DNA from: Cupriavidus sp. WKF15
GTDB lineage: Bacteria > Pseudomonadota > Gammaproteobacteria > Burkholderiales > Burkholderiaceae
NCBI RefSeq assembly: GCF_029278605.1
Contig: NZ_CP119572.1
Span: 744,001 to 808,000, forward strand
Reading direction: 5' to 3'
DNA length: 64,000 nucleotides
A program made the position numbers and the translations under genes. Of the stretch, positions 17,285 through 29,120 are shown piece after piece; the stretch's first letter is position 1; each line of letters starts with the position of its first letter. The notes beneath the pieces were generated by a model. The model was not told the origin of the DNA and made no database searches. It was given only the letters and a program-made list of their open reading frames with translations.

Positions 17285-17319
17285 CCCCGAAATGTCAATC
17301 TGATGCCCCGGATTGTCAA
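17285..17319 (+). promoter_or_regulatory. Paired AraC-type boxes (site A), 21-bp spacing
   Basis: CCCCGAAATGTCAA (17285-17298) and CCCCGGATTGTCAA (17306-17319) are direct repeats whose starts are 21 bp apart, two helical turns, as in AraC/XylS operators. The second box ends 91 bases before the ATG of the SDR gene at 17411. The same arrangement recurs at 20312, 26420, 27684 and 28891. Confidence 0.75.
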
Positions 17320-17410
17320 AATGCTCCGCCTTGCTCCTAGATACTTGGCGAGGTCGGCCGCAACGGCCCACGGTATCGACCTCTGACAAGATCGCAAGGA
17401 GAAGACCAGC

Positions 17411-18223
17411 ATGGAGCTTAAGGACAAGGTGGCAATCATTACGGGCGGCGGGCAGGGCGGCGGCGAAGGCATCGCGCGCGTGCTGGCGCGTGAAGGCGCC
17501 AGGATTGCCGTGGTGGACCTGAACCTTGACGCCGCCAGACGCGTCGCTTCCAGCATTGATCCGGACGGCAAGCGTGCGATCGCCATCCGCGCCGACATCA
17601 GCAAGAAGGCCGACACGGAGGCCATGGCCCGCCAGACGCTGGAGGCGTTTGCCGCGATCGACATCCTGGTCAATAACGCCGGCATCGGCGGCGCCTCCGC
17701 ATTGGTGTGCGACGTCACGGAAGAAAACTGGGACCGCGTGATGGGGGTGAACGCCAAGGGCATCCTGTTCTGCTGCCAGGCGGTCATCCCTGCCATGAAG
17801 GCGCAGGGCAAGGGCAAGATCGTCAATATCGACTCCATCGCCGGCATTCGCATGGCTTACTTCAGCAGTGTGGATTACACCGCGTCAAAGCATGCGGTCA
17901 CGGGACTGACGCAACACCTCGCATGGGAGCTGGCGGACCAGCGCATCAATGTCAATGCCGTGTGCCCCGGCGGCATCCTGACGCCTGCCATTGAAGCCTA
18001 TGCAAGTCCGGAAAAGCGCGATGCGCTGATCCGGCGGACGGTGCCGCTGGGCAGGTTCTGCAAGCCCGAGGAGATCGGCGAGGCGGTATCGTTCCTTGCC
18101 AGCGACCGTGCCGACATGATCACGGGCCAGATGCTGGCCGTGGATGGCGGCACCCTCACCGGATATGGCGAGGATCTCCGCGCGGTGCTGCGCCAGCGGC
18201 TCCAGGAAGAACGGGGCCATTGA
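17411..18223 (+). CDS. Short-chain dehydrogenase/reductase (classical SDR)
   Basis: A 270-residue Rossmann-fold oxidoreductase. The coenzyme motif is TGGGQGGGEG near residue 12; Asp 37 in AVVDLN suggests NAD(H) preference. NNAGIGG, the serine in NIDSIAG and the catalytic YTASK are all present. The alcohol or ketone substrate is unknown. ATG 17411 follows AAGGAGAAGACC. Upstream boxes of site A suggest AraC control together with other genes of the 17-29 kb cluster. It is a fully conserved SDR, unlike its neighbour at 18310. Confidence 0.9.
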   Translation: MELKDKVAIITGGGQGGGEGIARVLAREGARIAVVDLNLDAARRVASSIDPDGKRAIAIRADISKKADTEAMARQTLEAFAAIDILVNNAGIGGASALVCDVTEENWDRVMGVNAKGILFCCQAVIPAMKAQGKGKIVNIDSIAGIRMAYFSSVDYTASKHAVTGLTQHLAWELADQRINVNAVCPGGILTPAIEAYASPEKRDALIRRTVPLGRFCKPEEIGEAVSFLASDRADMITGQMLAVDGGTLTGYGEDLRAVLRQRLQEERGH

Positions 18224-18249
18224 GCTCGTCGCGACTGGCAGCCTTGAAG

Positions 18250-18275
18250 GCTGGCCCGCGCTGAAGCGGGCCGGC
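18250..18275. terminator. Hairpin between convergent SDR genes
   Basis: GGCCCGC (18253-18259) pairs with GCGGGCC (18266-18272), and the stem can be extended by flanking pairs. It lies 30-50 bases beyond both stops in the 86-bp gap between convergent genes and could serve both. No T-run, so this is a weak call. Confidence 0.35.
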
Positions 18276-18309
18276 AAGGCGAGGCTGCCGCCGCCGGTTC
18301 AGGGTAGGT

Positions 18310-19068
18310 TCAATAGTGGATGCTGCCGGGGATTCCGCCGCCGACCGCGATGGCTTCGCCATTGATGGCCACACTCAGCGGTGAAGCGAGGAAGGTCACC
18401 ACGCAGGCGACCTCGCTGGCATCGACCATGCGGCCGAGGCTGCTTCTGGTCGCCGCCCACGCCTCGGTTGCCGCATCGGTCTTCTCGGTGCGCGTGGGTC
18501 CGGGATGGACCGCCGTGACATTGATGCCCTTCGGGCCAAGTTCATCCGCGAGGTTCTTGGTGATCGCCGCCACGCCGACGTTGCGAAGCGTGGCGATGGG
18601 CCGGCCCGTATGGTAGATCGCCAGGCCGCCGATATTGATGATTCGTCCCCAGCCATTTGCGGCCAGATGCGGCGCCAGCGCCCGCGCGGTGCGAAGATAG
18701 CCGATGACCTTGATGTCGATATCTTCGAGTGCTTGCGCATCGACGATCTGGTCCAGCTGCGTGGCCGGCGAGATGCCGCCTGGCAGCGCCGCGGCATTGA
18801 CCAGGATATCGATGCCACCCAGGGCTTCGATCGCTTGCTCCACCATGGCGTCGACGGACGCCTTGTCGGCGGTATCGACCGTCAGCGGCACAATACGGCG
18901 GCCGCTCAGCGCCGCGAGCTCCGCGGCTGTCGCCTCCAGCGCCTCTTGCCCGCGCGCGGCGAGCACGACATCAACGCCTTCCTGCGCGAGCTGCAGGGCA
19001 ATCGTCTTGCCAATGCCGCGGCTGCCACCTGTCACGATGGCGCGCTTGCCTTCTAGCCTCAGGTCCAT
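18310..19068 (-). CDS. SDR-fold protein lacking the Ser-Tyr-Lys active site
   Basis: A 252-residue protein with a clear SDR nucleotide site (VTGGSRGIGK near residue 12) and overall SDR order. However, the Asn-Ala-Gly motif reads NAAALPGG and the active-site Ser position reads NIGGLAI. The Y-x-x-x-K segment is replaced: where Y-S-A-S-K would align, the sequence is A-T-L-R-N (residues 159-163). Either it uses other residues or it is not a standard dehydrogenase. A comparable subgroup of SDRs with R-N at this place exists to my knowledge. ATG 19068 follows GGAGAGATC. It lies downstream of an araC gene on the same strand (209-bp gap) and may be read through from it. Confidence 0.85.
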   Translation of the reverse strand: MDLRLEGKRAIVTGGSRGIGKTIALQLAQEGVDVVLAARGQEALEATAAELAALSGRRIVPLTVDTADKASVDAMVEQAIEALGGIDILVNAAALPGGISPATQLDQIVDAQALEDIDIKVIGYLRTARALAPHLAANGWGRIINIGGLAIYHTGRPIATLRNVGVAAITKNLADELGPKGINVTAVHPGPTRTEKTDAATEAWAATRSSLGRMVDASEVACVVTFLASPLSVAINGEAIAVGGGIPGSIHY

Positions 19069-19277
19069 GATCTCTCCGATTTCCTGCAATGTTCCAGCAA
19101 TGGGTTCCGGGCGATCATGCCCTGAGCACGTCGCCCCGTGATAGCGCATGCGTCCTGGTGGAGCGGTGATGCCCGCGCGCCGGGAAGCAACGTTACGGTA
19201 CCAGTAGGGCGCCAGCGCCGCTGGTCTTGCGCGCTTCGCGCGCACGATGGGTCTCCGCGGCATCGGCCAGCGCAGCG

Positions 19278-20294
19278 CTAGCGGGTACTTTCCCGTGCCG
19301 GTGATTGACGGCGCCACACCGTCACGCTGCAGCCAAAGCGCATGGAGAACCACCTGGAGAATGCACTAAGCGAGGAAAAGCCCAGCAGGATCGCAACGTC
19401 CGACAGCGGTCGCGCGCTGTTTTTAAGGTATCTCGTGACGAGGTCGACCCTGACGGCATCGACGACGGAAAGGTAGTTCTGTCCATAGGCAGCCAGGTGG
19501 CGATGCATCGTCTTGCGGTCGATGCCAAGCTGCCGGGCTACCTGTTCGGCCCCGCACTGGCCGGTTGGCAGCAGCGCGAATACCAGCTTGCGCACCTTGT
19601 CCGGCATGGTGGAGCCGGACTGCGCCAGCTTGGTATCCAGGAACTCGCGCGCATGACGTCCCAGTGCCGGATCCGGCGCTGCGTTGGCCACGTCGAGGTC
19701 GGAGGCGGCCAGCAGGATGCCATCGAAATCCTGGCGGAAGCGCACCGGTACACCGAACACGCGCCGATGCGTGGCAAGGCTGGCTGGCGCGGCATGGCTG
19801 AAGCAGACGCTGCGCGGCTTCCATGCCGGGCCCGCGAGCAGCTTGAACAACCGGAACCAGAGGCAGATCACGAACTCCGTCGATTGCCGCATGGAACCAT
19901 CCACGGACACGAGGAGTTCAAGCCTGACAAGCGCGGCGTCCCCGATCGTCTCGATGCGCATATCGAGACCTTCGTTGAGCAAATGCAGATAGCGCGCCAT
20001 CGCGTCCAGTGCGTCGCGCAGGGTGGCGCACTCGCGCATCGCCGTCCACAGTGGGCCCCGCGTTGTCAGTTGACGGGCTTCCGCCACGCGCAGCCCAAGG
20101 TCTTCCAGGCCGGCACGCCGTGCCGAATCCTCCAGCAGGCGCATGACCGACTTCGCCGGCACCCGCATTTCCGGGTCCACCAGCGCCGTCGGGCTGATAC
20201 CCGCCTGACGCAGCTGGCGATAGGGATCCAGGCCGAGCTGGCGGGCCACGTCGACAAACTCCGTCAGGTTCACATGTTGCAGCAGTGTCGACAT
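19278..20294 (-). CDS. AraC-family regulator with arabinose-binding-type N-domain
   Basis: A 338-residue regulator. Residues about 20-205 fit the N-terminal ligand domain seen in AraC regulators of the OruR/ArgR-like group (GPLWTAMRECATLRDALDAMARY). Residues about 235-330 form the double HTH (QVARQLGIDRKTMHRHL, then DVAILLGFSSLSAFSRWF). The paired boxes of site B lie 17 bases before its ATG, so self-regulation is plausible. The SDR gene at 20495 is divergent from the same gap. It is the best candidate for the regulator of the five box pairs, although the second AraC at 21317 is a paralogue and also possible. Confidence 0.92.
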   Translation of the reverse strand: MSTLLQHVNLTEFVDVARQLGLDPYRQLRQAGISPTALVDPEMRVPAKSVMRLLEDSARRAGLEDLGLRVAEARQLTTRGPLWTAMRECATLRDALDAMARYLHLLNEGLDMRIETIGDAALVRLELLVSVDGSMRQSTEFVICLWFRLFKLLAGPAWKPRSVCFSHAAPASLATHRRVFGVPVRFRQDFDGILLAASDLDVANAAPDPALGRHAREFLDTKLAQSGSTMPDKVRKLVFALLPTGQCGAEQVARQLGIDRKTMHRHLAAYGQNYLSVVDAVRVDLVTRYLKNSARPLSDVAILLGFSSLSAFSRWFSMRFGCSVTVWRRQSPARESTR

Positions 20295-20311
20295 AGGACT
20301 TCCCCAAGGTG

Positions 20312-20346
20312 CCCCAAAATGTAAAGTGGCTGCCCCCGAATGTCAA
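20312..20346 (+). promoter_or_regulatory. Paired AraC-type boxes (site B), 21-bp spacing
   Basis: CCCCAAAATGTAAA (20312-20325) and CCCCCGAATGTCAA (20333-20346), direct repeats 21 bp apart. The pair points toward the SDR gene at 20495 (148 bases before its ATG) and abuts the araC start (17 bases on the other side), so it could control both. Confidence 0.7.
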
Positions 20347-20494
20347 CGCGTCGCGCGCCAGTTCCTCAATACTGTGCATCGACCCTTCTGCATCGACCTC
20401 TACTACAACCTTTCGGAGTCGCAATGCGAGTCGAGCCACTTACGTGCGACACACACACACCATTGCAACGCAAAGCGAGACTGAGAAACTGACA

Positions 20495-21223
20495 ATGAGC
20501 CAGATCGACCCCAATATGCTCAGGGACAAGGTTGCCGTGATCACAGGCGCGGGCCGCGGCATCGGACGCACCATTGCACTGGCCTATGCCAGCGCCGGTG
20601 CTGCGGTGGTATGCAGCGCCCGCAGCGAGGCCGACATCGCGCAGACCGCCGCGCTGATCCGCGAAGCGGGTGGCCGGGCCATCGCGCAGACCGTTGACGT
20701 GGCGGACTACGAGACCGTCGCGGCCCTGTTCCAGCGCGCCAGCGATACCTTTGGCGGTGTCGATATCGTCGTGGCCAATGCCGGTGTCGCGCTCGAGCAG
20801 CGCCGGATCGCTGACAGCGATCCCGTGCTCTGGCGCAAGACCATCGATGTCAACCTGACGGGTGCCTACCACACCGCCCATGCCGCCATTCCCCACCTGC
20901 GCCGCCGTGGCGCCGGCAAGATCATCATGATCGGTTCCGGCCAGCGCAACCGGCCCAATGCGGGCCTGTCGGCCTACTCGTGCTCCAAGAGCGGCCTGTG
21001 GATGCTTACCCAGTCGCTGGCGATGGAACTCCAGGAGGACAACATCAGCGTCAATGAGCTGATACCGGGGCCGGTCAGGACGGACATGACGCGTGACGTC
21101 GCCATACCGCCCGGCGAATGGTTCAAGGATCCCGCCGATGTCGTCCCGCTTGCCCTGTTCCTGGCCGGCATGCCCGATTTCGGTCCCAGCGCGCAGAGCT
21201 ACAGCCTGATGCGCCGCGCCTGA
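20495..21223 (+). CDS. Short-chain dehydrogenase/reductase (classical SDR)
   Basis: A 242-residue SDR with all classical elements: TGAGRGIGRT at residue 14, ANAG, the active Ser in MIGSGQRN and YSCSK. Arg 38 in CSARSEAD hints at NADP(H). The substrate is unknown. The real start is ATG 20495 since the domain begins immediately; the open frame reaches back to 20309 through the divergent promoter. The second araC gene follows 93 bases after its stop on the same strand, so the two may share a transcript. Confidence 0.9.
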   Translation: MSQIDPNMLRDKVAVITGAGRGIGRTIALAYASAGAAVVCSARSEADIAQTAALIREAGGRAIAQTVDVADYETVAALFQRASDTFGGVDIVVANAGVALEQRRIADSDPVLWRKTIDVNLTGAYHTAHAAIPHLRRRGAGKIIMIGSGQRNRPNAGLSAYSCSKSGLWMLTQSLAMELQEDNISVNELIPGPVRTDMTRDVAIPPGEWFKDPADVVPLALFLAGMPDFGPSAQSYSLMRRA

Positions 21224-21316
21224 CACCATGCAGACGACCGGCGGGCGCGGACACCGCTCCCGCGACAACCGAAGGCTGCAAATGGCCTTGCAGCCGCTGC
21301 CCGTGCAAGGAGGCCC

Positions 21317-22375
21317 ATGAGTCGTTTAGTCCGCATCGCCACGCTGTCGCGCTATACCGAGGTGGCGCGCTCGGTCGGCCTGGATCCGCTGCGGATCCTG
21401 GCGGAAGTGGGGCTGCCGCCAAGCTGCCTGGACGACGGCGACAACCTGGTTTCCGCCAGCGCAGTCTGCCGCCTTCTCGAAATGTCCGCGGCAGCCTCCG
21501 ATGCCGAAGACTTTGGCCTGCGCATGGGGGAGGGCCGTCAATTGTCGGTATTGGGGCCGCTCGGCATGGCAGTGCGAGATTCGCGGACGCTGCGCGATGC
21601 GCTGGGTGCGATGGTGCGCTACATCACGCTGCACAGCGAGGCTCTGTTCCTCGGCGTGGAAGAACGGGAGGGCGCTCTGGTCATCCGCGTGTCGCTGATG
21701 GTCGAGCATTCCGGCTCGACACGCCAGGCCGACGAAATGGTAGTGGTGTCGCTTTACCGGATGCTTCAGGAGCTGATCGGTCCACGGTGGCGCGCGCGGC
21801 GTATCTGCCTTTCGCATGGCGCCCCGAGAAATCCGGCAGCGCACGCGCGCGTGTTCGGCCGGACCGTGGATTTCGGTTGCGACTTCAACGGCATTGTCTG
21901 CGAGCTGCAGGACATGGAGGCAGTGCCGTGCTCCGCGCGCCCGGAGCTGGCGCAGTACGCGCATGCCTATCTGGAATCACTGAGCGCGCGTGCGACCCTG
22001 TCCATGACCGAAAAAGTCCGGCGCATGGTGCTGTCCTTGCTCTCGTCGGGAAACTGCGGCGTGGAGCGCGTCGCCAGCCAGCTTGGCGTCGACCGGCGCA
22101 CGGTCCACCGCAAGCTGCTGCAGGAAGGCTCGACTTTCAGCAGCATTCTCGATGAGGTCCGTGCCTCGCAGGCGGTGCAGTATCTCCGGCATTCGGACCG
22201 CCCGGTCAGCTACGTGGCCGTGTTGCTCGGGTTTTCGATGCAGAGTGCGTTCTCGCGCTGGTTCCGCGGCCATTTTGGCTGCAGCCCCAGTGCATGGCGC
22301 AGCGATGGCATGCAGCCGGCCGGGCCGCTGCCGCGGCAACAGCTGCTGGCGGCGAGCCCCGAGCAGCGGGCGTAA
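21317..22375 (+). CDS. AraC-family regulator, second paralogue
   Basis: A 352-residue protein of the same architecture as the regulator at 19278: an N-terminal ligand domain (GPLGMAVRDSRTLRDALGAMVRY) and a C-terminal double HTH (RVASQLGVDRRTVHRKLLQ and YVAVLLGFSMQSAFSRWF). ATG 21317 follows GGAGGCCC. No 21-bp-spaced box pair was found in the 93 bases before it. The first helices of the two HTH regions are similar but not identical, so the two proteins may read related sites. It converges on the EthD gene with an 11-bp gap. Confidence 0.92.
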   Translation: MSRLVRIATLSRYTEVARSVGLDPLRILAEVGLPPSCLDDGDNLVSASAVCRLLEMSAAASDAEDFGLRMGEGRQLSVLGPLGMAVRDSRTLRDALGAMVRYITLHSEALFLGVEEREGALVIRVSLMVEHSGSTRQADEMVVVSLYRMLQELIGPRWRARRICLSHGAPRNPAAHARVFGRTVDFGCDFNGIVCELQDMEAVPCSARPELAQYAHAYLESLSARATLSMTEKVRRMVLSLLSSGNCGVERVASQLGVDRRTVHRKLLQEGSTFSSILDEVRASQAVQYLRHSDRPVSYVAVLLGFSMQSAFSRWFRGHFGCSPSAWRSDGMQPAGPLPRQQLLAASPEQRA

Positions 22376-22386
22376 CGCGGCGTTGC

Positions 22387-23091
22387 TCAGGCCGCCTGCG
22401 GCCAGACGATGCGGTGCTCTGCTTCGATCGACAGCGTCACGGCAGCGTCGGTATCGATAAAGTTCGCTTCGTCCGGCTTGACTGACTCCCGGAAGAGCGG
22501 CGAGCGCACCGCTGCCTGCAGCGCGGCATCATCCTCGAACCAGATCTGCGCCGCGCCGTCGAAGCGCGGCTCGCCTTGCTCACAGGCATCGGCACAGGCG
22601 GCCGGCAGCGTGGCACTCTGGACATAGCGGCGCAGACCCGGCACCGACGCGGCCAATGGCCCATGCGTGCCGCGCCAGTAGCGCAGCATGTCCGCGCGGC
22701 CGAGATTCGCCTTGCGCTTGAAGAAGGTCATTCGCTTTGGCAACGATTCGTCCCTGGCGATCGATGCGCCGGCGTGTACGACGTGATCCGTTGTGTGCAG
22801 ACGCACGCAGGGCCCGGGGGCGGCCAGTTTGCCAGCGCCCGCCAGCGCCGACCCGACATACTCCGCGCTGTGCAGGAGCGCATCGAGAGCCGCACTATCT
22901 TCGACCCAGATCTCGTCCACGGTATCGTAGTGCGCAGCCTGACCGGGGACCAGGCGGACAGTGTTCTGGACGTAGCGCCGCACACCGGGAAAGCTCGCCG
23001 CCAGCGGCGCATGCGCTTCTCGCCAGTAGCGCAGGAAATCGTGGCGGTCCACATCGGGGCGCCGCGTGCAGAGGAAGATGAGATGGATCAT
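22387..23091 (-). CDS. Protein with two EthD/dimeric alpha-beta barrel domains
   Basis: A 234-residue protein made of two tandem EthD-type domains. Each has the signature of a Tyr-Trp followed by His-Ala/Gly-Pro-Leu and Pro-Gly (DFLRYWREAHAPLAASFPG near residue 20, and DMLRYWRGTHGPLAASVPG near 135), which is often seen in single-domain dimers. The fusion therefore builds the dimer into one chain. Related proteins accompany ring-cleaving, ether-degrading or polyketide-type pathways, sometimes as cyclases or isomerases; the reaction here is unknown. Its ATG overlaps the stop of the upstream SDR gene by 4 bases (translational coupling). It is the last gene of the operon that starts at 26357. Confidence 0.8.
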   Translation of the reverse strand: MIHLIFLCTRRPDVDRHDFLRYWREAHAPLAASFPGVRRYVQNTVRLVPGQAAHYDTVDEIWVEDSAALDALLHSAEYVGSALAGAGKLAAPGPCVRLHTTDHVVHAGASIARDESLPKRMTFFKRKANLGRADMLRYWRGTHGPLAASVPGLRRYVQSATLPAACADACEQGEPRFDGAAQIWFEDDAALQAAVRSPLFRESVKPDEANFIDTDAAVTLSIEAEHRIVWPQAA

Positions 23092-23948
23092 GTCGCGGGC
23101 GTGCCGGTGGTGACGGCGGGCGCGCGCTCCAGCGCGCCGAGAATCCGCGCGAATCGCGCTTCCAGGCGCGGCCGCATGCGTGTCGGCGTGAAGATGTAGA
23201 ACTCGCCCGCCCGAATCGCCTCCAGTGTCTGGCTTGCCACCAGTTCCGGCGCCGTGCCAGCGGCAACACTGGCCCTGAACGATTCGCTGGCATGGCTCGA
23301 GCGTTCGGCGATGGGGGTCTTCACCGGGCCAGGACAAAGCACCGAAACACCAATGCCGGTGCCGCGCAGTTCCTGCTCGAGCGCCTCGGAGAGGGCTACC
23401 ACGCTGTATTTCGTGGCCGCGTAGGCGCCCATCGGGAAGTCGCTGTTCACCCAGAAGCCAGCGCCCGACGCCGTGTTGACGAAATGCGCCGGCTCGCCGT
23501 GCCGGCGCAGCAGCGGCAGGAAATGACGGATACCGTGAATCACGCCAAACACGTTGATGCCGAACGCGCGGATCCAGTCCTGCTCCGATAGCGAAGCCAG
23601 TTCGCCGCTCATATCGATGCCGGCGTTGTTGAAGACCAGGTGGATGCGCCCCAGTTTCGCCGCGAACTCCGCCGCCGCATCGCGCACGTCCGCATCGGAG
23701 GAAACATCCAGTACGCGCGTGCAGATGCGCCTGCCGGTCGATGCGAGCTGCTCGCGTGCAGTGTCAAGCCCGTGCGCGTCGATGTCGGCCAGTGCAAGGT
23801 CGGCACCGCGAGCCGCCAGTGCCTCGGCCAGTGCCAGGCCGATGCCCGACGCGGCGCCTGTGATGATTGCCGTCTTGCCCTGAAAGTCCTGAAGGCGGGG
23901 GCGGGCGTTCGGCCGGGACTCGTTGCCGCCGATGTCTGTATGAATCAT
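23088..23948 (-). CDS. Short-chain dehydrogenase/reductase (classical SDR)
   Basis: A 286-residue SDR with TGAASGIGLA near residue 31, Asp 55 (ALADID, NAD-type), NNAGID, the Ser in NTASGAG and catalytic YAATK. It has a longer C-terminus than the other SDRs of the cluster, ending FYIFTPTRMRPRLEARFARI, as seen in the group that acts on bulky hydrophobic ketones or alcohols. It lies between the medium-chain reductase (36-bp gap) and the EthD gene (4-bp overlap), so these three are almost certainly co-transcribed. Substrate unknown. Confidence 0.9.
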   Translation of the reverse strand: MIHTDIGGNESRPNARPRLQDFQGKTAIITGAASGIGLALAEALAARGADLALADIDAHGLDTAREQLASTGRRICTRVLDVSSDADVRDAAAEFAAKLGRIHLVFNNAGIDMSGELASLSEQDWIRAFGINVFGVIHGIRHFLPLLRRHGEPAHFVNTASGAGFWVNSDFPMGAYAATKYSVVALSEALEQELRGTGIGVSVLCPGPVKTPIAERSSHASESFRASVAAGTAPELVASQTLEAIRAGEFYIFTPTRMRPRLEARFARILGALERAPAVTTGTPAT

Positions 23949-23984
23949 GGATATTGGTGGTTAAGGGCTGCGCGGCCGCGGCAT

Positions 23985-25004
23985 TCAGCCGATTACGGAT
24001 TCCGGAGCGAGGCGGACAAGCTGCTTGCCGGTGTTCTTGCCGGTAAACAGGCGGTTCAGGGCGGCGGGCGCCTGCTCGATGCCGTCAACGATGTCGACGC
24101 GGTACTTGAGCCGGCCGTCCCTGACCCAGTTCGCCAGGGCTTCCACGGCTTCGTGGAACCGCGAACGGTAGTCGGCAATAAGGAAGCCTTCGATGCGGGC
24201 GCGTTTCATGATGACGTTGCGGAACAGCTTCGGGCTCCACCAGTCACCGCTTGCGTTGTAAGTCGAGATCATCCCGCACAGGGCGATGCGGGCACCCGGA
24301 TTGATCAGAGCCAGCACGGCATCCATGGTCTCGCCGCCCACGTTCTCGAAATCGACGTCGATGCCGTCCGGGCAGGCGTCGCGAAGATCGGCAAGCAGGT
24401 TGCCGCCCTTGTAGTCGACACAGGCATCGAGGCCGAACTCATCCCTGACGAGCTGGCATTTGGCCTGGCCACCCGCGACGCCAACCACCCGGCAGCCGAG
24501 TATCTTGCCGATCTGGCCGGCGATCGAGCCGACGCCACCTGCGGCGGCCGACACCACGATGGTCTCGCCAGCCCTGGGTCTGGCAATGTCGAGCATGCCG
24601 AAATAGGCGGTCATGCCGGAGCTGCCCAGCACGCTCGCATACGCATGCAGGGGCAGGCCATACTCCACCGGGACGCGCCGGGCAGTCCTCGTTACCGAGT
24701 ACTCTTCCCACGCCATGCCGCCTTCGACGATGTCGCCAGGCCTGAAGTCCGGGTGGTGGGACTCGATGACCACGCCCATGGTGACGCCGCGCATCACCTC
24801 GCCCAGCGCCACCGGGGCCATGTACTGGTCGATCTCGCTCATCCAGACGCGGTTGGTCGGCGCCACCATGAGATAGAGGTTGCGCACCAGGATCTCGCCG
24901 TCGCGCGGGCGCGGCAGCGGCGCTTCAACGAGCTGCAGGTCGTTGTCGCCGATATCGCCGACGGGGCGCTGCCTGAGGATCCAGCGCCGGTTCATTGTCT
25001 TCAT
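23985..25004 (-). CDS. NADP-dependent medium-chain reductase (PTGR/CurA-like)
   Basis: A 339-residue zinc-free medium-chain reductase. The substrate domain is residues 1-130. The NADPH-binding Rossmann domain has AAAGGVGSIAGQIGKILGCRVVG, and DVDFENVGGETMDAVL is diagnostic of the leukotriene B4 dehydrogenase / CurA family. Members reduce the C=C bond of alpha,beta-unsaturated ketones or enals. ATG 25004 follows TTGGAGGAGCAAGC. The upstream hydrolase-fold gene ends 75 bases before. Reduction of an enone would fit a degradation route in which the SDRs oxidise an alcohol first; this is inference. Confidence 0.9.
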   Translation of the reverse strand: MKTMNRRWILRQRPVGDIGDNDLQLVEAPLPRPRDGEILVRNLYLMVAPTNRVWMSEIDQYMAPVALGEVMRGVTMGVVIESHHPDFRPGDIVEGGMAWEEYSVTRTARRVPVEYGLPLHAYASVLGSSGMTAYFGMLDIARPRAGETIVVSAAAGGVGSIAGQIGKILGCRVVGVAGGQAKCQLVRDEFGLDACVDYKGGNLLADLRDACPDGIDVDFENVGGETMDAVLALINPGARIALCGMISTYNASGDWWSPKLFRNVIMKRARIEGFLIADYRSRFHEAVEALANWVRDGRLKYRVDIVDGIEQAPAALNRLFTGKNTGKQLVRLAPESVIG

Positions 25005-25079
25005 GCTTGCTCCTCCAAAATTTATGCCTGGTACCGCGTGCGCGGGCCGCACTGCCGGTCGCCGTAACGCGCTCGCTGC

Positions 25080-26357
25080 TCAGTCTTCCAGCGCGCCATA
25101 TACGATGTTGCGCAACAGGGCCCGGTACCCGACGCGCGTCGCCGGGTCGTTCTCCTGAAGCATCAGAATGGCTACCAGCTGCTCTTGCGGATCCGCCCAG
25201 AAATACGTCCCGAGCGCGCCGCCCCAGTAAAAATCGCCGACCGAACCCGGCACCGGGCTCAGGCCCCGCACAGTGCGCACGCCCACTGTCAAGCCATGGC
25301 CCTGGCCGAGATCGGGCAATGGCGCGTTGATGCCGAGCCCTGTGGTCGAGCTGCCATAGCGTGTGGCCGGGGGCAGATGGTTGCCAAGCATCAATTCGAC
25401 GGTCTTCCTGGAGAGCAGGCGCACGCCATCGAGCACACCGCCGCTGAGCAGCATCTGACAGAAGCGCGCGTAGTCGCCGGCCGTGGACAGCAGGCCGGCG
25501 CCGCCGGAATGCCAGCGAGGCGGGTCGTGCTCGTCGTAGTCGAACAGGGCGGTCGATTTGCCGGATGCGCCGGATGGCAGTGCCAGGCCAGCGCCGTCCT
25601 GGCGCTTCAGCCCGAAGGCCGTTGCATGCATGCGCAGCGGCTGTGTCACGCGCTCCGCGACGAAGCGAGCCAGGTCCATGCCCGAGACTATCTCGATGAC
25701 GCGGCCGAGCACGTCGGTGGACATGCCATACTCGAACACCTCGCCCGGCTGGCATTGCAGCGGGATGGCCGCCAGCTTTGCGACCATCTCGGCATTGGTC
25801 TGCCCGGGGTCCATCGTGGCGCTTTCGCGATACTGGCGCTGCACCAGCGAATCGCCGAACTGCCCGTATGTCAGGCCGGACGTGTGCCGGAACAGGTCGT
25901 GGACGGTCATGGCGCGGCGCACCGGTTCGAGCACAAGGCGGCGCCCGCCGGGTTTCCCGTCGGCCGTCTCGACGCCGACCTGAAGGTGCGCGAATTCCGG
26001 GATGTAGCGTTCGACCGGATCGTTCAGGGCCAGTCTTCCTTCTTCCATCAGTATCAGCGCTGCCACGCCAATGACGGGCCGGGTCATCGCAGCAAGGCGA
26101 AAGACGGAGTGGCGCTGCATCGGACGGCGCGGGGTATCCGCATGCTCGAAGCCGAACGCCTCGAACCAGGCGATCCGGCCCTTGCGCGCAACCAGCACGA
26201 CGGCGCCCGGGATCTTGCGACGGTCGATATCTGCATTGAACACCGATGAGATCGACCGCAGCCGCCGCGCGGACAGCCCGACCTCTTCAGGGGTATCAGC
26301 CTGGTCCAGGGCACAGGTCTTGAATGGCAATACTGGCTCCTTCATGTTTCGCGGCAT
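25080..26357 (-). CDS. Beta-lactamase/EstB-fold protein with altered S-x-x-K motif
   Basis: A 425-residue serine-beta-lactamase-fold protein of the EstB type, without a signal peptide. Fold landmarks are present: PGAVVLVARKGRIAWFEAFG, then HSVFRLAAMTRPVIG, the DLFRHTSGLTYG loop, the Tyr segment EYGMSTDVLGRVIE, and the G-G-x stretch near the end. In the motif that should read S-x-x-K the codons at 26079-26090 give A-M-T-R. The nucleophile Ser and general-base Lys are both missing, so esterase or amidase activity of the usual kind is not expected. ATG 26357 is preferred (AAGG 6 bases upstream); ATG 26345 is the alternative. It heads the operon of the reductase, SDR and EthD genes. Boxes of site E lie upstream. 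Confidence 0.85.
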   Translation of the reverse strand: MPRNMKEPVLPFKTCALDQADTPEEVGLSARRLRSISSVFNADIDRRKIPGAVVLVARKGRIAWFEAFGFEHADTPRRPMQRHSVFRLAAMTRPVIGVAALILMEEGRLALNDPVERYIPEFAHLQVGVETADGKPGGRRLVLEPVRRAMTVHDLFRHTSGLTYGQFGDSLVQRQYRESATMDPGQTNAEMVAKLAAIPLQCQPGEVFEYGMSTDVLGRVIEIVSGMDLARFVAERVTQPLRMHATAFGLKRQDGAGLALPSGASGKSTALFDYDEHDPPRWHSGGAGLLSTAGDYARFCQMLLSGGVLDGVRLLSRKTVELMLGNHLPPATRYGSSTTGLGINAPLPDLGQGHGLTVGVRTVRGLSPVPGSVGDFYWGGALGTYFWADPQEQLVAILMLQENDPATRVGYRALLRNIVYGALED

Positions 26358-26419
26358 CAGCGCCTTGCGCCTGCCGTAAGGCATATGTACCGAGTCTAGG
26401 GAAGCAGGCGGCCGGGCGG

Positions 26420-26454
26420 ATGATGGTGCGGGTCTTCGCCGTGACCGCCGGGGA
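26420..26454 (-). promoter_or_regulatory. Paired AraC-type boxes (site E), weaker
   Basis: On the minus strand, TCCCCGGCGGTCAC (26454-26441) and ACCCGCACCATCAT (26433-26420), starts 21 bp apart. The first is nearly identical to the first box of site D; the second matches the best box at about 8 of 14 positions. The pair ends 62 bases before the hydrolase-fold ATG. Confidence 0.45.
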
Positions 26455-26614
26455 CATTGCGTATCCGGGGCACGCACTGTCGACGGGTACCGGCGAAGAG
26501 GGGAGCAACCGGCGAAGGTCGAATGATTGCGGCAGATCGCCGCGATGGCCGTCGGTGGCCGAGTGCGAACTCCGGCAGGAAGGCAACAGCCAGCGCTGCC
26601 GGAGCCGCGGACCG

Positions 26615-27592
26615 TCAGGGCTGGATGTTGTAGGTCTTCACGATGGCGGCATTGCGGTCGTACTCGGTGCGCAAGGCCTGGCCAAGCTGAGCCGGGGTTT
26701 GCGCCGGCACGGTCTCGAAGCCGAGCCCGAGAATCCGCTCCTGCACCTTGGGCGTCGAGGCTGCCTTGTAGACGGCAGCCTGGATTTTCTGGACCACGTC
26801 TGCAGGCACCTTGGACGATACGAACACGCCCGCCCAGTTGTTGAAGTCAATGTCCGGATAGCCCAGCTCGGCAAAGGTCGGGACTTGCGGCAGCAGCGGC
26901 GAACGCTGTTTCGCGGCCAGCGCATAGGCCTGCAGCTTGCCGGCCTTGATCATCGGCAGCGAGGTCACCATGCCGTCGTACATCACCGCGATCTGTCCGC
27001 CCATGACCTGTGTCAGCGCCGGCGGAGAGCCGGCAAAAGGCACGTGCTGCAGATCCATGCCAGCTTTCTGGTTCATGATCAGGCCAGCATAGTGGGCGAC
27101 CGTGCCCGCACTGTATGAAGCAAAACTGAGCTGGCCCGAATGGGCTTTCACATAGCTGATCAGGCTCGGCAGGTCCTTGGGCGGCAGGGCCGTCGACCCG
27201 ACCAGCAGGAGGGTCGACCTGGCCACCGCGGCCACCGGCTTCACATCCTTCATCGGATCGTAGGAGACCTTCATCACATGCGGGATTTCCGTGAGCACAT
27301 TGGTGGTCGACACCAGGATGGTCTGCCCGTCGGCCGGCGCCCCCAGCAACGTGTTCATCGCAATGCCGCCGCCGGCGCCTGGCTTGTTGTCGACCACCAC
27401 GGACTGGCCCAGTTCGGCCGTGAGCGCTTCGGACAGCACGCGTGCCAGCACATCCATGGTGCCGCCGGCAGGCGCTGGGACCAGTACCCGGACCGGCTTG
27501 TTGGTCCATGCCATGGCGACGGGCATGGACAGGGCCAGGACAGCGCAGGCAGCGGCGCGGCGCACGCAGTTCAGGGTAGGGCGGATTGGCAT
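26615..27592 (-). CDS. Bug/TctC-family periplasmic solute-binding protein
   Basis: A 325-residue tripartite-tricarboxylate-type binding protein. It has a signal peptide (AAACAVLALSMPVAMA), then the family pattern KPVRVLVPAPAGGTMDVLARVLSEAL, VVDNKPGAGGGIAMN, and the C-terminal LPQVPTFAELGYPDIDF. It would bind a carboxylated small molecule in the periplasm. No TctA/TctB permease genes are near, which is common for the many orphan Bug proteins of Burkholderiaceae. ATG 27592 follows GGGGAGACATCT. Strong AraC-type boxes (site C) end 91 bases upstream, the same distance as at the SDR gene 17411, so its ligand may be the substrate or inducer of the cluster. Confidence 0.9.
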   Translation of the reverse strand: MPIRPTLNCVRRAAACAVLALSMPVAMAWTNKPVRVLVPAPAGGTMDVLARVLSEALTAELGQSVVVDNKPGAGGGIAMNTLLGAPADGQTILVSTTNVLTEIPHVMKVSYDPMKDVKPVAAVARSTLLLVGSTALPPKDLPSLISYVKAHSGQLSFASYSAGTVAHYAGLIMNQKAGMDLQHVPFAGSPPALTQVMGGQIAVMYDGMVTSLPMIKAGKLQAYALAAKQRSPLLPQVPTFAELGYPDIDFNNWAGVFVSSKVPADVVQKIQAAVYKAASTPKVQERILGLGFETVPAQTPAQLGQALRTEYDRNAAIVKTYNIQP

Positions 27593-27683
27593 AGATGTCT
27601 CCCCGTTATGGGTGTGGTCTCGAAATGGGTGCCATGGACGACGGCAGTCGTGCCAGAAGTATGGGCGGGCGATGCAAAGCGTC

Positions 27684-27718
27684 TTAACATTCAGGGGCAA
27701 ATATTTGACATTTCGGGA
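27684..27718 (-). promoter_or_regulatory. Paired AraC-type boxes (site C), 21-bp spacing
   Basis: On the minus strand, TCCCGAAATGTCAA (27718-27705) and CCCCTGAATGTTAA (27697-27684), starts 21 bp apart. The first box differs from the first box of site A at one position. The pair is oriented toward the Bug gene, 91 bases before its ATG. Confidence 0.75.
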
Positions 27719-27831
27719 CAGTTAGGGAAAGCCCAATGCGGGGATGCCCTCGGGGGCAGTGCGGGAAAACGGGGAAATGCGTCGGGAAATGCGCAGATCG
27801 CGGCGCGACGGCACCGCGGCGGCAAACGGGA

Positions 27832-28809
27832 TCAGATGTCGCGGATGGCTCCGCTGGCGATCCCGGTGCGGAAGAGTCTGAAGGTCTCGCCTACTGCTTC
27901 GCGCAGCGGCGTGCGGGGCAGGGGACCAATCAGGTTCTCCAGCGCGGTCGCGTCGTAGTCTTCGGGAAGCCCGAGCGATGGCCCGGCGAACGTGATCGTT
28001 CCGCGCGCTTCCGGTATGACCGACTCGATCGTCTCGACGACTTCGCCCATGTCTGCGACGCTGCCTTGCATATTGAAGACGTCAGCGCCGCGATAGCCGG
28101 AACGTGCGCACGCGATGAACATGCGCGCAAGGTCGTCGGCATAGTGAATCTGGCTGCGGCCGCTGTATGGAATATGGAAACGACGCGCGAGCGCTGCCGC
28201 CAGGACGGCCTGGGTGGGCGCCGCGGTCAGGCCATAGTCTCTTCCGGCGCCGAAGACTGTTGCCGGGCGAAGGCCGATGCTGGAGACGCCTCTGTCCTGG
28301 TAATACACGCGCGCCATGCCCTCTTCTGCCTGCTTGAACACACCATAGAGGGTCGTCGGATGCCCGCAGGTATGGTGCAGGATGGTTGCATCGCTCGCCG
28401 CGTCGCAGCTGTCGTACACCGCAATCGATGACGCGTACACGATGCCGGCGATCCGCTGGGCGCGCCGCGCCACTGCTTCGAACAGATTCACGCCGCCCAG
28501 CACGTTGACGCGGGCCCCAAGCGGAGGATCGGCCTTGAACCTTGGGTGAATCAGCGCTGCCAGGTGAATCACATGCGTGATGCGATACCTGTCCAGTGTT
28601 GCCTCGAGCAGGCCCAGGTCCGTGATGTCGCCGCGAACCATCTCGACGCGCGACAGATGTGCATCGTCCATCAACAGGCGCAGGCGCCGGACGTCGTTGT
28701 CCGCGTCGAAGGCAACGACCGGCACGCCTTCCTGTACGAGCCGGCGCACCGTCCATGCGCCGATACATCCCAGTGCCCCGGTTACCAGAAATCGCTCAGA
28801 GTTCGCCAT
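27832..28809 (-). CDS. NAD-dependent epimerase/dehydratase (extended SDR)
   Basis: A 325-residue extended SDR with the N-terminal coenzyme motif VTGALGCIGAW (TGxxGxxG) and Asp 35 for NAD. It has HLAALIHP, the active Ser in YASSIAVYDS and the catalytic Tyr/Lys in TTLYGVFK. Named relatives epimerise nucleotide sugars, but others are ketone reductases or 3-beta-hydroxysteroid-type enzymes. No sugar genes are adjacent, so a catabolic reductase role is more likely. It lies in the same direction as the Bug gene (239-bp gap with its own box pair) and has box pair D upstream. ATG 28809 is the only start before the coenzyme motif. Confidence 0.85.
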   Translation of the reverse strand: MANSERFLVTGALGCIGAWTVRRLVQEGVPVVAFDADNDVRRLRLLMDDAHLSRVEMVRGDITDLGLLEATLDRYRITHVIHLAALIHPRFKADPPLGARVNVLGGVNLFEAVARRAQRIAGIVYASSIAVYDSCDAASDATILHHTCGHPTTLYGVFKQAEEGMARVYYQDRGVSSIGLRPATVFGAGRDYGLTAAPTQAVLAAALARRFHIPYSGRSQIHYADDLARMFIACARSGYRGADVFNMQGSVADMGEVVETIESVIPEARGTITFAGPSLGLPEDYDATALENLIGPLPRTPLREAVGETFRLFRTGIASGAIRDI

Positions 28810-28890
28810 CGTTGCCAGTCACCGGTTGCGGGCACCGCCGCGTGCCCGGAATGAACTGTCAACATTCTAGGAAGGCCATCGCCATCGGGA

Positions 28891-28925
28891 TTGACGTGGC
28901 GGGGCGCCGGCGTGACAGCCGGGGA
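28891..28925 (-). promoter_or_regulatory. Paired AraC-type boxes (site D), 21-bp spacing
   Basis: On the minus strand, TCCCCGGCTGTCAC (28925-28912) and CCCCGCCACGTCAA (28904-28891), starts 21 bp apart. The pair ends 81 bases before the extended-SDR ATG. The core GTCA is kept in both boxes. Confidence 0.6.
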
Positions 28926-29065: not shown

Positions 29066-29094
29066 TTGAAATGCCCATACCCCGTCCCTATAAT
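29066..29094 (+). promoter_or_regulatory. groES-groEL promoter (sigma-70 with overlapping sigma-32 features)
   Basis: TTGAAA (29066-29071) and TATAAT (29089-29094) are 17 bp apart, an almost ideal sigma-70 promoter. CTTGAAA at 29065 followed 14 bases later by CCCTATAA also resembles a heat-shock sigma-32 promoter. The -10 box runs directly into the CIRCE operator. Confidence 0.85.
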
Positions 29095-29120
29095 TAGCAC
29101 TCGCTGGGGGTGAGTGCTAA
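29094..29120 (+). promoter_or_regulatory. CIRCE operator (HrcA site)
   Basis: TTAGCACTC (29094-29102), nine bases, GAGTGCTAA (29112-29120): an exact CIRCE inverted repeat. HrcA binding here would block the promoter until heat shock. It lies 92 bases before the groES ATG. Confidence 0.97.

Follow-up and report, generated by a model that had tools for sequence, protein, structure and literature searches.

The window analyzed here, a 64-kb stretch of the genome of Cupriavidus sp. WKF15 (G000:C1:744001-808000 of 7.38 Mb in 3 contigs), contains five pairs of short boxes, named below by their low coordinates (17285, 20312, 26420, 27684, and 28891). These pairs are very probably operators of a class II activator of the AraC/XylS type with a PF12625 N-terminal domain, and sequence comparisons point to the AraC protein encoded at 19278..20294 on the minus strand (AraC1) as the cognate regulator of 20312 and 17285. 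The conserved AraC-type operator is real, and the regulon is credible.

Box pairs and promoter layout in the window

Each pair consists of two 14-base boxes that start 21 bp apart and are oriented toward the downstream gene, and all five were found in the sequence at the positions, on the strands, and with the spacing and direction given in the initial annotation. On the plus strand, CCCCGAAATGTCAA-N7-CCCCGGATTGTCAA (17285..17319) lies 91 nt ahead of its predicted target, a short-chain dehydrogenase (SDR) gene (17411..18223, plus strand), and CCCCAAAATGTAAA-N7-CCCCCGAATGTCAA (20312..20346) lies 17 bp from the ATG of araC1 and is aimed at another SDR gene, its predicted target (20495..21223, plus strand). 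On the minus strand, TCCCGAAATGTCAA-N7-CCCCTGAATGTTAA (27684..27718) stands 91 nt ahead of a predicted target gene for a Bug/TctC solute receptor (26615..27592, minus strand), and the moderate pair TCCCCGGCTGTCAC-N7-CCCCGCCACGTCAA (28891..28925) stands 81 nt ahead of a predicted target gene for an extended SDR/NAD-dependent epimerase (27832..28809, minus strand). The weak pair TCCCCGGCGGTCAC-N7-ACCCGCACCATCAT (26420..26454, minus strand), which is at chance level by sequence but conserved in orthologs, precedes the gene for a beta-lactamase-fold serine hydrolase (25080..26345, minus strand) and ends 74 bases before its ATG (26345). The initial annotation had also noted that its sites A and C end 91 bases before their ATG; its letters seem to run by strength, its C being 27684, and the distance holds for both 17285 (ATG 17411) and 27684 (ATG 27592). 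The half-sites open with CCCC/CCCC in 17285 and 20312 and with TCCC/CCCC in 27684 and 28891.

Because the patterns used to search the genome had been derived from the window sites, an independent matrix was constructed from 39 distinct operators, all from other genomes and chosen with CCC in both half-sites. With this matrix, 20312 (44.1), 17285 (41.6), 27684 (35.8), and 28891 (16.7) were the top four positions of the 64-kb window, and 26420 scored 1.0. In 100 dinucleotide shuffles of the window, the mean maximum was 3.7 and the highest 19.0. Sites 17285, 20312, and 27684 are far beyond chance. The score of 28891 is suggestive, as 0.04 positions per shuffle reached 12 and one of the 100 shuffle maxima exceeded it. 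Site 26420 is at chance level by its letters, and the case for it rests on ortholog conservation.

Genome-wide, the strong-site pattern with up to 3 mismatches had four matches in 7.38 Mb and none in a reversed control; these were 17285, 20312, 27684, and C1:1210124, which directly precedes another PF12625 araC gene. A looser pattern, which gained 28891, gave 13 matches versus 4 in the control, and four of its matches with 3 mismatches (C2:1207707, C2:1617265, C2:2501202, and C3:618935) were dropped as likely chance because the control also yields four. The initial annotation had held that many random 21-bp-spaced matches would tell against its proposal, and on both counts the genome scan returned few. 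CCCN5GTCAA followed 20–23 nt on by ATACT occurred five times in 7.38 Mb and was absent from the control. All five occurrences carry a second half-site, i.e., are box pairs; 27684, 26420, and 28891 do not match the pattern exactly and were not recovered with it. A class-wide search matched 1 of 229 genomes, namely that of the window itself.

At all five sites, a −10-like hexamer starts 20–21 nt past the second box. These putative −10 elements are GATACT for 17285 (17340..17345, plus strand; 20 nt past the box), AATACT for 20312 (20368..20373, plus strand; 21 nt), TAGACT for 26420 (26393..26398, minus strand; 21 nt), CATACT for 27684 (27658..27663, minus strand; 20 nt), and TAGAAT for 28891 (28864..28869, minus strand; 21 nt). 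At this distance, the proximal box reaches the −35 position, which is where class II AraC activators have their proximal site, and the arrangement found here, with a proximal half-site at or over −35 and a fixed distance to the −10, is the class II layout. The best match to TTGACA 16–18 nt from the −10 was 4/6 at 27684, 3/6 at 17285, 2/6 at 26420 and 28891, and 1/6 at 20312. The −35 is weak in four of the five promoters, which would be the usual sign of an activator-dependent promoter, and activation by the bound regulator is predicted from the promoter layout.

Pairs beside araC genes and at orthologous promoters

AraC1 and a second AraC-type regulator of the locus (AraC2; 21317..22375, plus strand) both belong to the AraC/XylS family, with the C-terminal double helix-turn-helix domain HTH_18 scoring 60.1 and 66.4 bits (cut-off 33.6) and the N-terminal PF12625 Arabinose_bd domain scoring 158.4 and 145 bits (cut-off 27.6). 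We searched 400 bp upstream of the gene in 79 named relatives of AraC1 from Cupriavidus, Paraburkholderia, Caballeronia, Pseudomonas, Ralstonia, Variovorax, Curvibacter, and other genera; the matrix used in the surveys of araC relatives included the window sites, unlike the 39-operator matrix. A pair was present in 64 of the 79, compared with 5 of 221 control stretches of the same size downstream of the gene and 5 of 790 shuffles. Its spacing was 21 bp in 63 of these 64, although 17–26 bp was permitted, so the half-sites run in the same direction at an integral number of helical turns, as in a direct-repeat operator. All 64 pairs point away from araC, and 41 end 17–18 bp before the araC ATG, placing a divergent operator at the start of the gene. 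Past the pair, ATACT followed 21 or 22 nt on in 44 of the 64, AGACT or AGAAT in 7, and neither in 13. Because relatives in several genera carry the pair near their own start codon, the earlier choice of AraC1 as the regulator is well supported by these comparisons, at least for 20312 and 17285, whereas AraC1 may not act alone at 27684, 26420, and 28891.

Among the first 30 loci similar to AraC1, all 10 of L045–L054 have a pair near the araC start, whereas in L055–L074 (20 loci, 37–52% identical) the matrix found pairs only in L055 and L066, both weak. The idea that every PF12625 protein uses the same box was rejected on this result (2 of 20). Among 28 loci similar to AraC2, a pair stands beside araC in all 14 of L089–L102; close orthologs of AraC2 have no pair directly upstream, as expected of a gene inside an operon. 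Two AraC1 relatives from Cupriavidus (L165 and L168) combine Arg260 and His264 with a slightly altered second helix, and no recognizable pair was found beside their araC genes.

We also mapped 20 stretches around relatives of both araC genes, two of which (L111 and L112) represent one genome. Each of the 13 stretches whose araC1 is more than 70% identical (L103–L114 and L116) has a 20312-like pair next to this gene. Ahead of the Bug gene, the 27684 pair is nearly invariant in L103–L108 and more divergent in L110–L112; in L109 and L114, a pair lies 1.0 and 1.3 kb upstream of this gene, and in L113 and L117, the matrix found no pair upstream of it. The ortholog of the SDR gene at 17411 has a pair upstream in L103 and L109 (approximately 300–330 nt away) and in L116 (approximately 95 nt away); in L106 and L108, the corresponding region falls outside the stretch. 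By eye, the 26420 footprint and its −10 were recognized in 12 of 15 aligned hydrolase promoters including that of the window (L103–L112 and L114), and the 28891 footprint in 4 of 7 extended SDR promoters including that of the window (L104, L105, and L107); the L116 promoter has a weak pair of its own. Absence of the boxes before orthologous genes, which the initial annotation had named as evidence against a regulon, was not what we observed, since the boxes stand ahead of such genes in related species.

In some relatives, extra genes lie between the box and the SDR gene (L104:11076-12008 and L130:1451-5848), and there are none at the corresponding place in the window (20347-20494). They encode a TauD-type dioxygenase and, in Pseudomonas, also beta-keto acid cleavage (BKACE), MFS, and MDR proteins, those in Pseudomonas umsongensis (L130) being MDR, TauD-type dioxygenase, BKACE, and MFS. 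These genes, present in relatives and not in the window, indicate that the operon has shrunk or grown.

Recognition helices and box letters

The relationship between the regulators and the letters of their boxes was analyzed in 176 non-identical homologs with 160 bp upstream. A repeat finder that looked for 21-bp repetition, with C at position 2 and AA at the end as loose anchors, and made no use of the box itself, passed 105 of the 176 homologs versus 12 of 880 shuffles, and the 71 failing homologs were left out of the covariation analysis. Across 87 × 14 residue–base pairs, the strongest mutual information linked box position 3 to residue 264, which lies in the first recognition helix; further pairs joined the second-helix residues 308 and 309 with positions 12 and 11, respectively, and residue 261 with position 1. 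These values derive from an effective number of only 22.9 sequences, uncorrected for relatedness, and high scores were also obtained for residues that lie outside the recognition helices (278, 292, 293, and 249). In an alignment with RamA, residues 261, 264, and 265 fall opposite Trp, Gln, and Arg, a stretch that RamA has in common with MarA. In MarA, Trp42, Gln45, and Arg46 contact bases, according to PMC3315485. This alignment to base-contacting residues, through RamA, suggests that the 5′ part of each box is read by the first helix-turn-helix and the 3′ part by the second.

In the register-corrected training rows, 76 of the 86 regulators with Arg260 had CCC in each half-site, 5 had it in one half-site, and 5 in neither; none of the 19 rows without Arg260 had CCC in either half-site. 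Lys261, which has a single origin on the tree, was accompanied by C at position 1 of both half-sites of its own operators (19 of 19); of the 86 Arg261 types, 50 had TT at position 1 and 10 had CC, some of the latter being register shifts. G occupied position 10 of both half-sites in 84 of 93 training rows with Arg314 and in 0 of 12 without it; by mutual information, this pair ranked outside the top 40. In addition, C was absent from position 3 of either half-site in all 19 Gln264 regulators and present in both half-sites in 74 of the 86 others; on a tree built from the N-terminal domain alone, Gln264, which in this set is accompanied throughout by loss of Arg260, changes four times.

A small test was available from 42 held-out genes (47 before a 90% identity filter), of which 13 passed the repeat finder. 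The rule fixed beforehand, that a regulator with Gln264 has no C at position 3 of its box, held literally for 5 of 5 held-out Gln264 regulators, with C in both half-sites of 6 of 8 others (Fisher p = 0.021). It is nevertheless contradicted by L283 and L287, which had been misread two bases out of register and properly begin with TCCC, both with Arg260. The rule that Arg260 goes with CCC was adopted after the fact, following this test. When the held-out rows were read by eye, CCC was in both half-sites of 9 of 10 Arg260 regulators (the miss being L281) and of 0 of 3 others, these three being almost identical repeats, located 58 bp from the ATG, which are perhaps not operators. The prediction that Arg314 goes with G at position 10 of both half-sites was literally correct in 13 of 13, with the same caveat about register, and none of the held-out genes that passed the repeat finder had Lys261.

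Four Arg260 regulators from Aromatoleum and betaproteobacterial metagenome-assembled genomes (L188, L189, L192, and L199) are exceptions, because they do not have CCC in both half-sites; their pairs (e.g., TCAC/TCTT) sit 45–77 bp from the ATG. In the window's own genome, C3:380257 (L070), which encodes a close AraC1 paralog carrying Gln264 and His314, has a TCGT-type 21-bp repeat 17 bp before its ATG. We had considered that this gene had no operator and rejected this, because the variant repeat is present where the matrix is blank and fits the changed helix.

It is possible, if slightly short of an even chance, that a whole subclade of PF12625 regulators combines an operator inherited at a fixed place, letters that can be read from helix residues (Arg260 for CCC, Lys261 for the leading C, and Arg314 for G at position 10), and a merged network of paralogs. 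If this is true, the operators of many uncharacterized regulators would be predictable from protein sequence, and paralogs with like helices in one cell would share an operator, merging beta-keto-acid and ketone catabolism into one network.

Regulatory model, alternatives, and known systems

In the model that we favor, two subunits of a class II PF12625-type activator would bind head to tail. Their half-sites, offset by 21 bp or two helical turns, would lie on one face of the DNA, with the 5′ YCCC of each read by the first helix-turn-helix and its 3′ GTCAA by the second. The promoter-proximal half-site, which ends 20–21 nt before the −10, would abut or overlap the −35 and allow class II contact with RNA polymerase. 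Because the 20312 pair lies 17 bp before the ATG of araC1, protein bound there should cover the araC1 transcription start or leader and would limit its own level by autorepression; the same binding would activate the divergent operon of the SDR gene and araC2. Sites 27684, 26420, and 28891 would be bound by AraC1, AraC2, or both, and a ketone, keto acid, or hydroxy acid is the probable inducer. The sites, their phase, their conservation, the spacing to the −10, and the covariation with helix residues are observed; binding, activation, autorepression, the limits of the operons, and the inducer are inferred.

Several observations weigh against this model. By its own letters, 26420 is at chance, with 2.06 positions per shuffle reaching 0; it ranks seventh in the window, and two other places score above it. 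The 26420 footprint was missing by eye from 3 of 14 non-window hydrolase promoters (L113, L116, and L117), and that of 28891 from 3 of 6 non-window extended SDR promoters (L116–L118). No pair exceeded the threshold in 15 of the 79 AraC1 relatives, 9 of which have a variant 21-bp repeat and 6 none by eye, and the matrix found no pair at L070 (52% identity, the next paralog) or at L071, L072, and L074 (41–44%). T opens the first half-site of 27684 and 28891, whereas the own operators of Lys261 (AraC1-type) proteins have C in both. Finally, the recognition helices of AraC1, AraC2, and the paralog at C1:1210176 closely resemble each other, and with three such proteins in one genome, an exclusive assignment of sites is not possible.

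This similarity is also the starting point of a tentative alternative, to which we give well under an even chance, in which these three paralogs bind the same sites under different inducers and form one merged network; from their sequences, AraC2 and C1:1210176 may share sites. It is favored by six more genome sites with a like box, comprising the pairs C1:1210124, C1:1223261, C2:1016013, C2:2502172, and C3:196500 and the variant C2:425403. Five of them precede genes for BKACE (C1:1210124, C2:1016013, and C2:425403), an MFS transporter (C1:1223261), and an MDR dehydrogenase (C2:2502172), and the theme is the catabolism of keto/hydroxy acids or related compounds. On the other hand, the differences at position 1 and in the flanks may suffice to separate the paralogs. 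At C3:196500 (L044), a good pair has no clear gene within approximately 500 bp downstream and is possibly a relic promoter.

A two-tier cascade, which we consider rather unlikely, would confine AraC1 to 17285 and 20312, and AraC2, made from the SDR operon, would act at 27684, 26420, and 28891, which, from the sequence, it may take over. The letters agree with such a division, since AraC2 has Arg261, the own operators of Lys261 types have C/C (19 of 19), TT prevails in Arg261 types (50 of 86), and CCCC/CCCC in 17285 and 20312 differs from TCCC/CCCC in 27684 and 28891; moreover, in L116, araC2 and the extended SDR gene are divergently oriented. However, Lys261 arose once on the tree, so its link to C rests on one event, a strict split does not fit L117 and L118, where boxes CCCC/TCCC and CCCC/CCCC face an AraC2 homolog, and there is no known operator of AraC2 itself. 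An operator that acts only in repression, with an accidental spacing to the −10, could explain the closeness of 20312 to the araC1 start but is very improbable given ATACT at 21–22 nt in 44 of 64 relatives and a weak −35 in four of the five window promoters. That C-rich motifs of a G+C-rich genome were merely picked out by eye is next to impossible, because even though 26420 taken alone is at chance and 28891 was exceeded by 1 of 100 shuffles, the genome-wide controls, the shuffles, and the conservation across several genera speak against it: chance is refuted for 17285, 20312, and 27684 by the controls and shuffles, and for 28891 and 26420 conservation carries part or all of the case.

Among the genes of the locus, the SDR gene at 20495 is probably the first of an operon with araC2, and a second SDR gene downstream of araC1 (18310..19068, minus strand) is possibly co-transcribed with it. 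The presumed operon headed at 26345 begins with the hydrolase, whose best NCBIfam match, methyl acetate hydrolase AcmB, is below the cut-off, and ends with an EthD-domain protein with two matched stretches (22387..23091, minus strand); an MDR oxidoreductase (ADH_N_2, ADH_zinc_N; 23985..25004, minus strand) and an SDR (23088..23948, minus strand) lie between them. PF12625 has 16 matches in the genome, one in a 97-aa short frame, leaving 15 full-length regulators. An open frame of approximately 92 aa resembling the N-terminus of AraC2 (G000:C1:655861-656013; L042) probably represents an additional, truncated PF12625 regulator copy. Beyond the box pairs, a perfect inverted repeat, TTAGCACTC-N9-GAGTGCTAA (29094-29120, plus strand), lies upstream of groES (start 29213), ahead of groESL, and matches the CIRCE/HrcA operator.

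Although the kind of control site is known, this particular regulon and its legible code were not found described in the literature searched. By title, no operator of this kind was among the matches listed for the box letters; no description of an operator of the PF12625 group was found in the literature searched, which covered few subscription papers, and none of this operator in that on AraC in Cupriavidus/Burkholderiales, VirS, and covariation. With 15 full-length PF12625 regulators here, a fixed operator beside each gene would be a direct route to target assignment, and naturally varying regulators and their operators offer a ready test set for DNA choice by AraC-type proteins.

The best NCBIfam match of both AraC1 and AraC2 is QhpR (NF049968; 199.1 and 197.4 bits), but both are below the curated 250-bit cut-off for this equivalog and are therefore not classed as QhpR, and none of the QhpR matches listed was relevant by title. 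By sequence, the closest solved structure is PDB 8rcx, that of Mycobacterium tuberculosis VirS, which was matched over residues 3-323 with E = 9.4e-38 and has the same two-domain build; its recognition-helix residues differ in the alignment. Activators of the XylS/BenR type likewise have repeated half-sites ahead of the activated promoter, and XylS uses two direct repeats 21 bp apart in class II activation. They are unlike the window system in their box sequence and in the PF12625 N-terminal domain of the window proteins, which XylS is not known to have. The repeat consensus of BenR is TGCA-N6-GGNTA (PMC6449761). The MarA/RamA/SoxS helix-turn-helix pair is similar in its first recognition helix, with whose Trp, Gln, and Arg residues 261, 264, and 265 align, but MarA is described as acting as a monomer (PMC3315485), whereas the window system keeps two boxes at a fixed phase.

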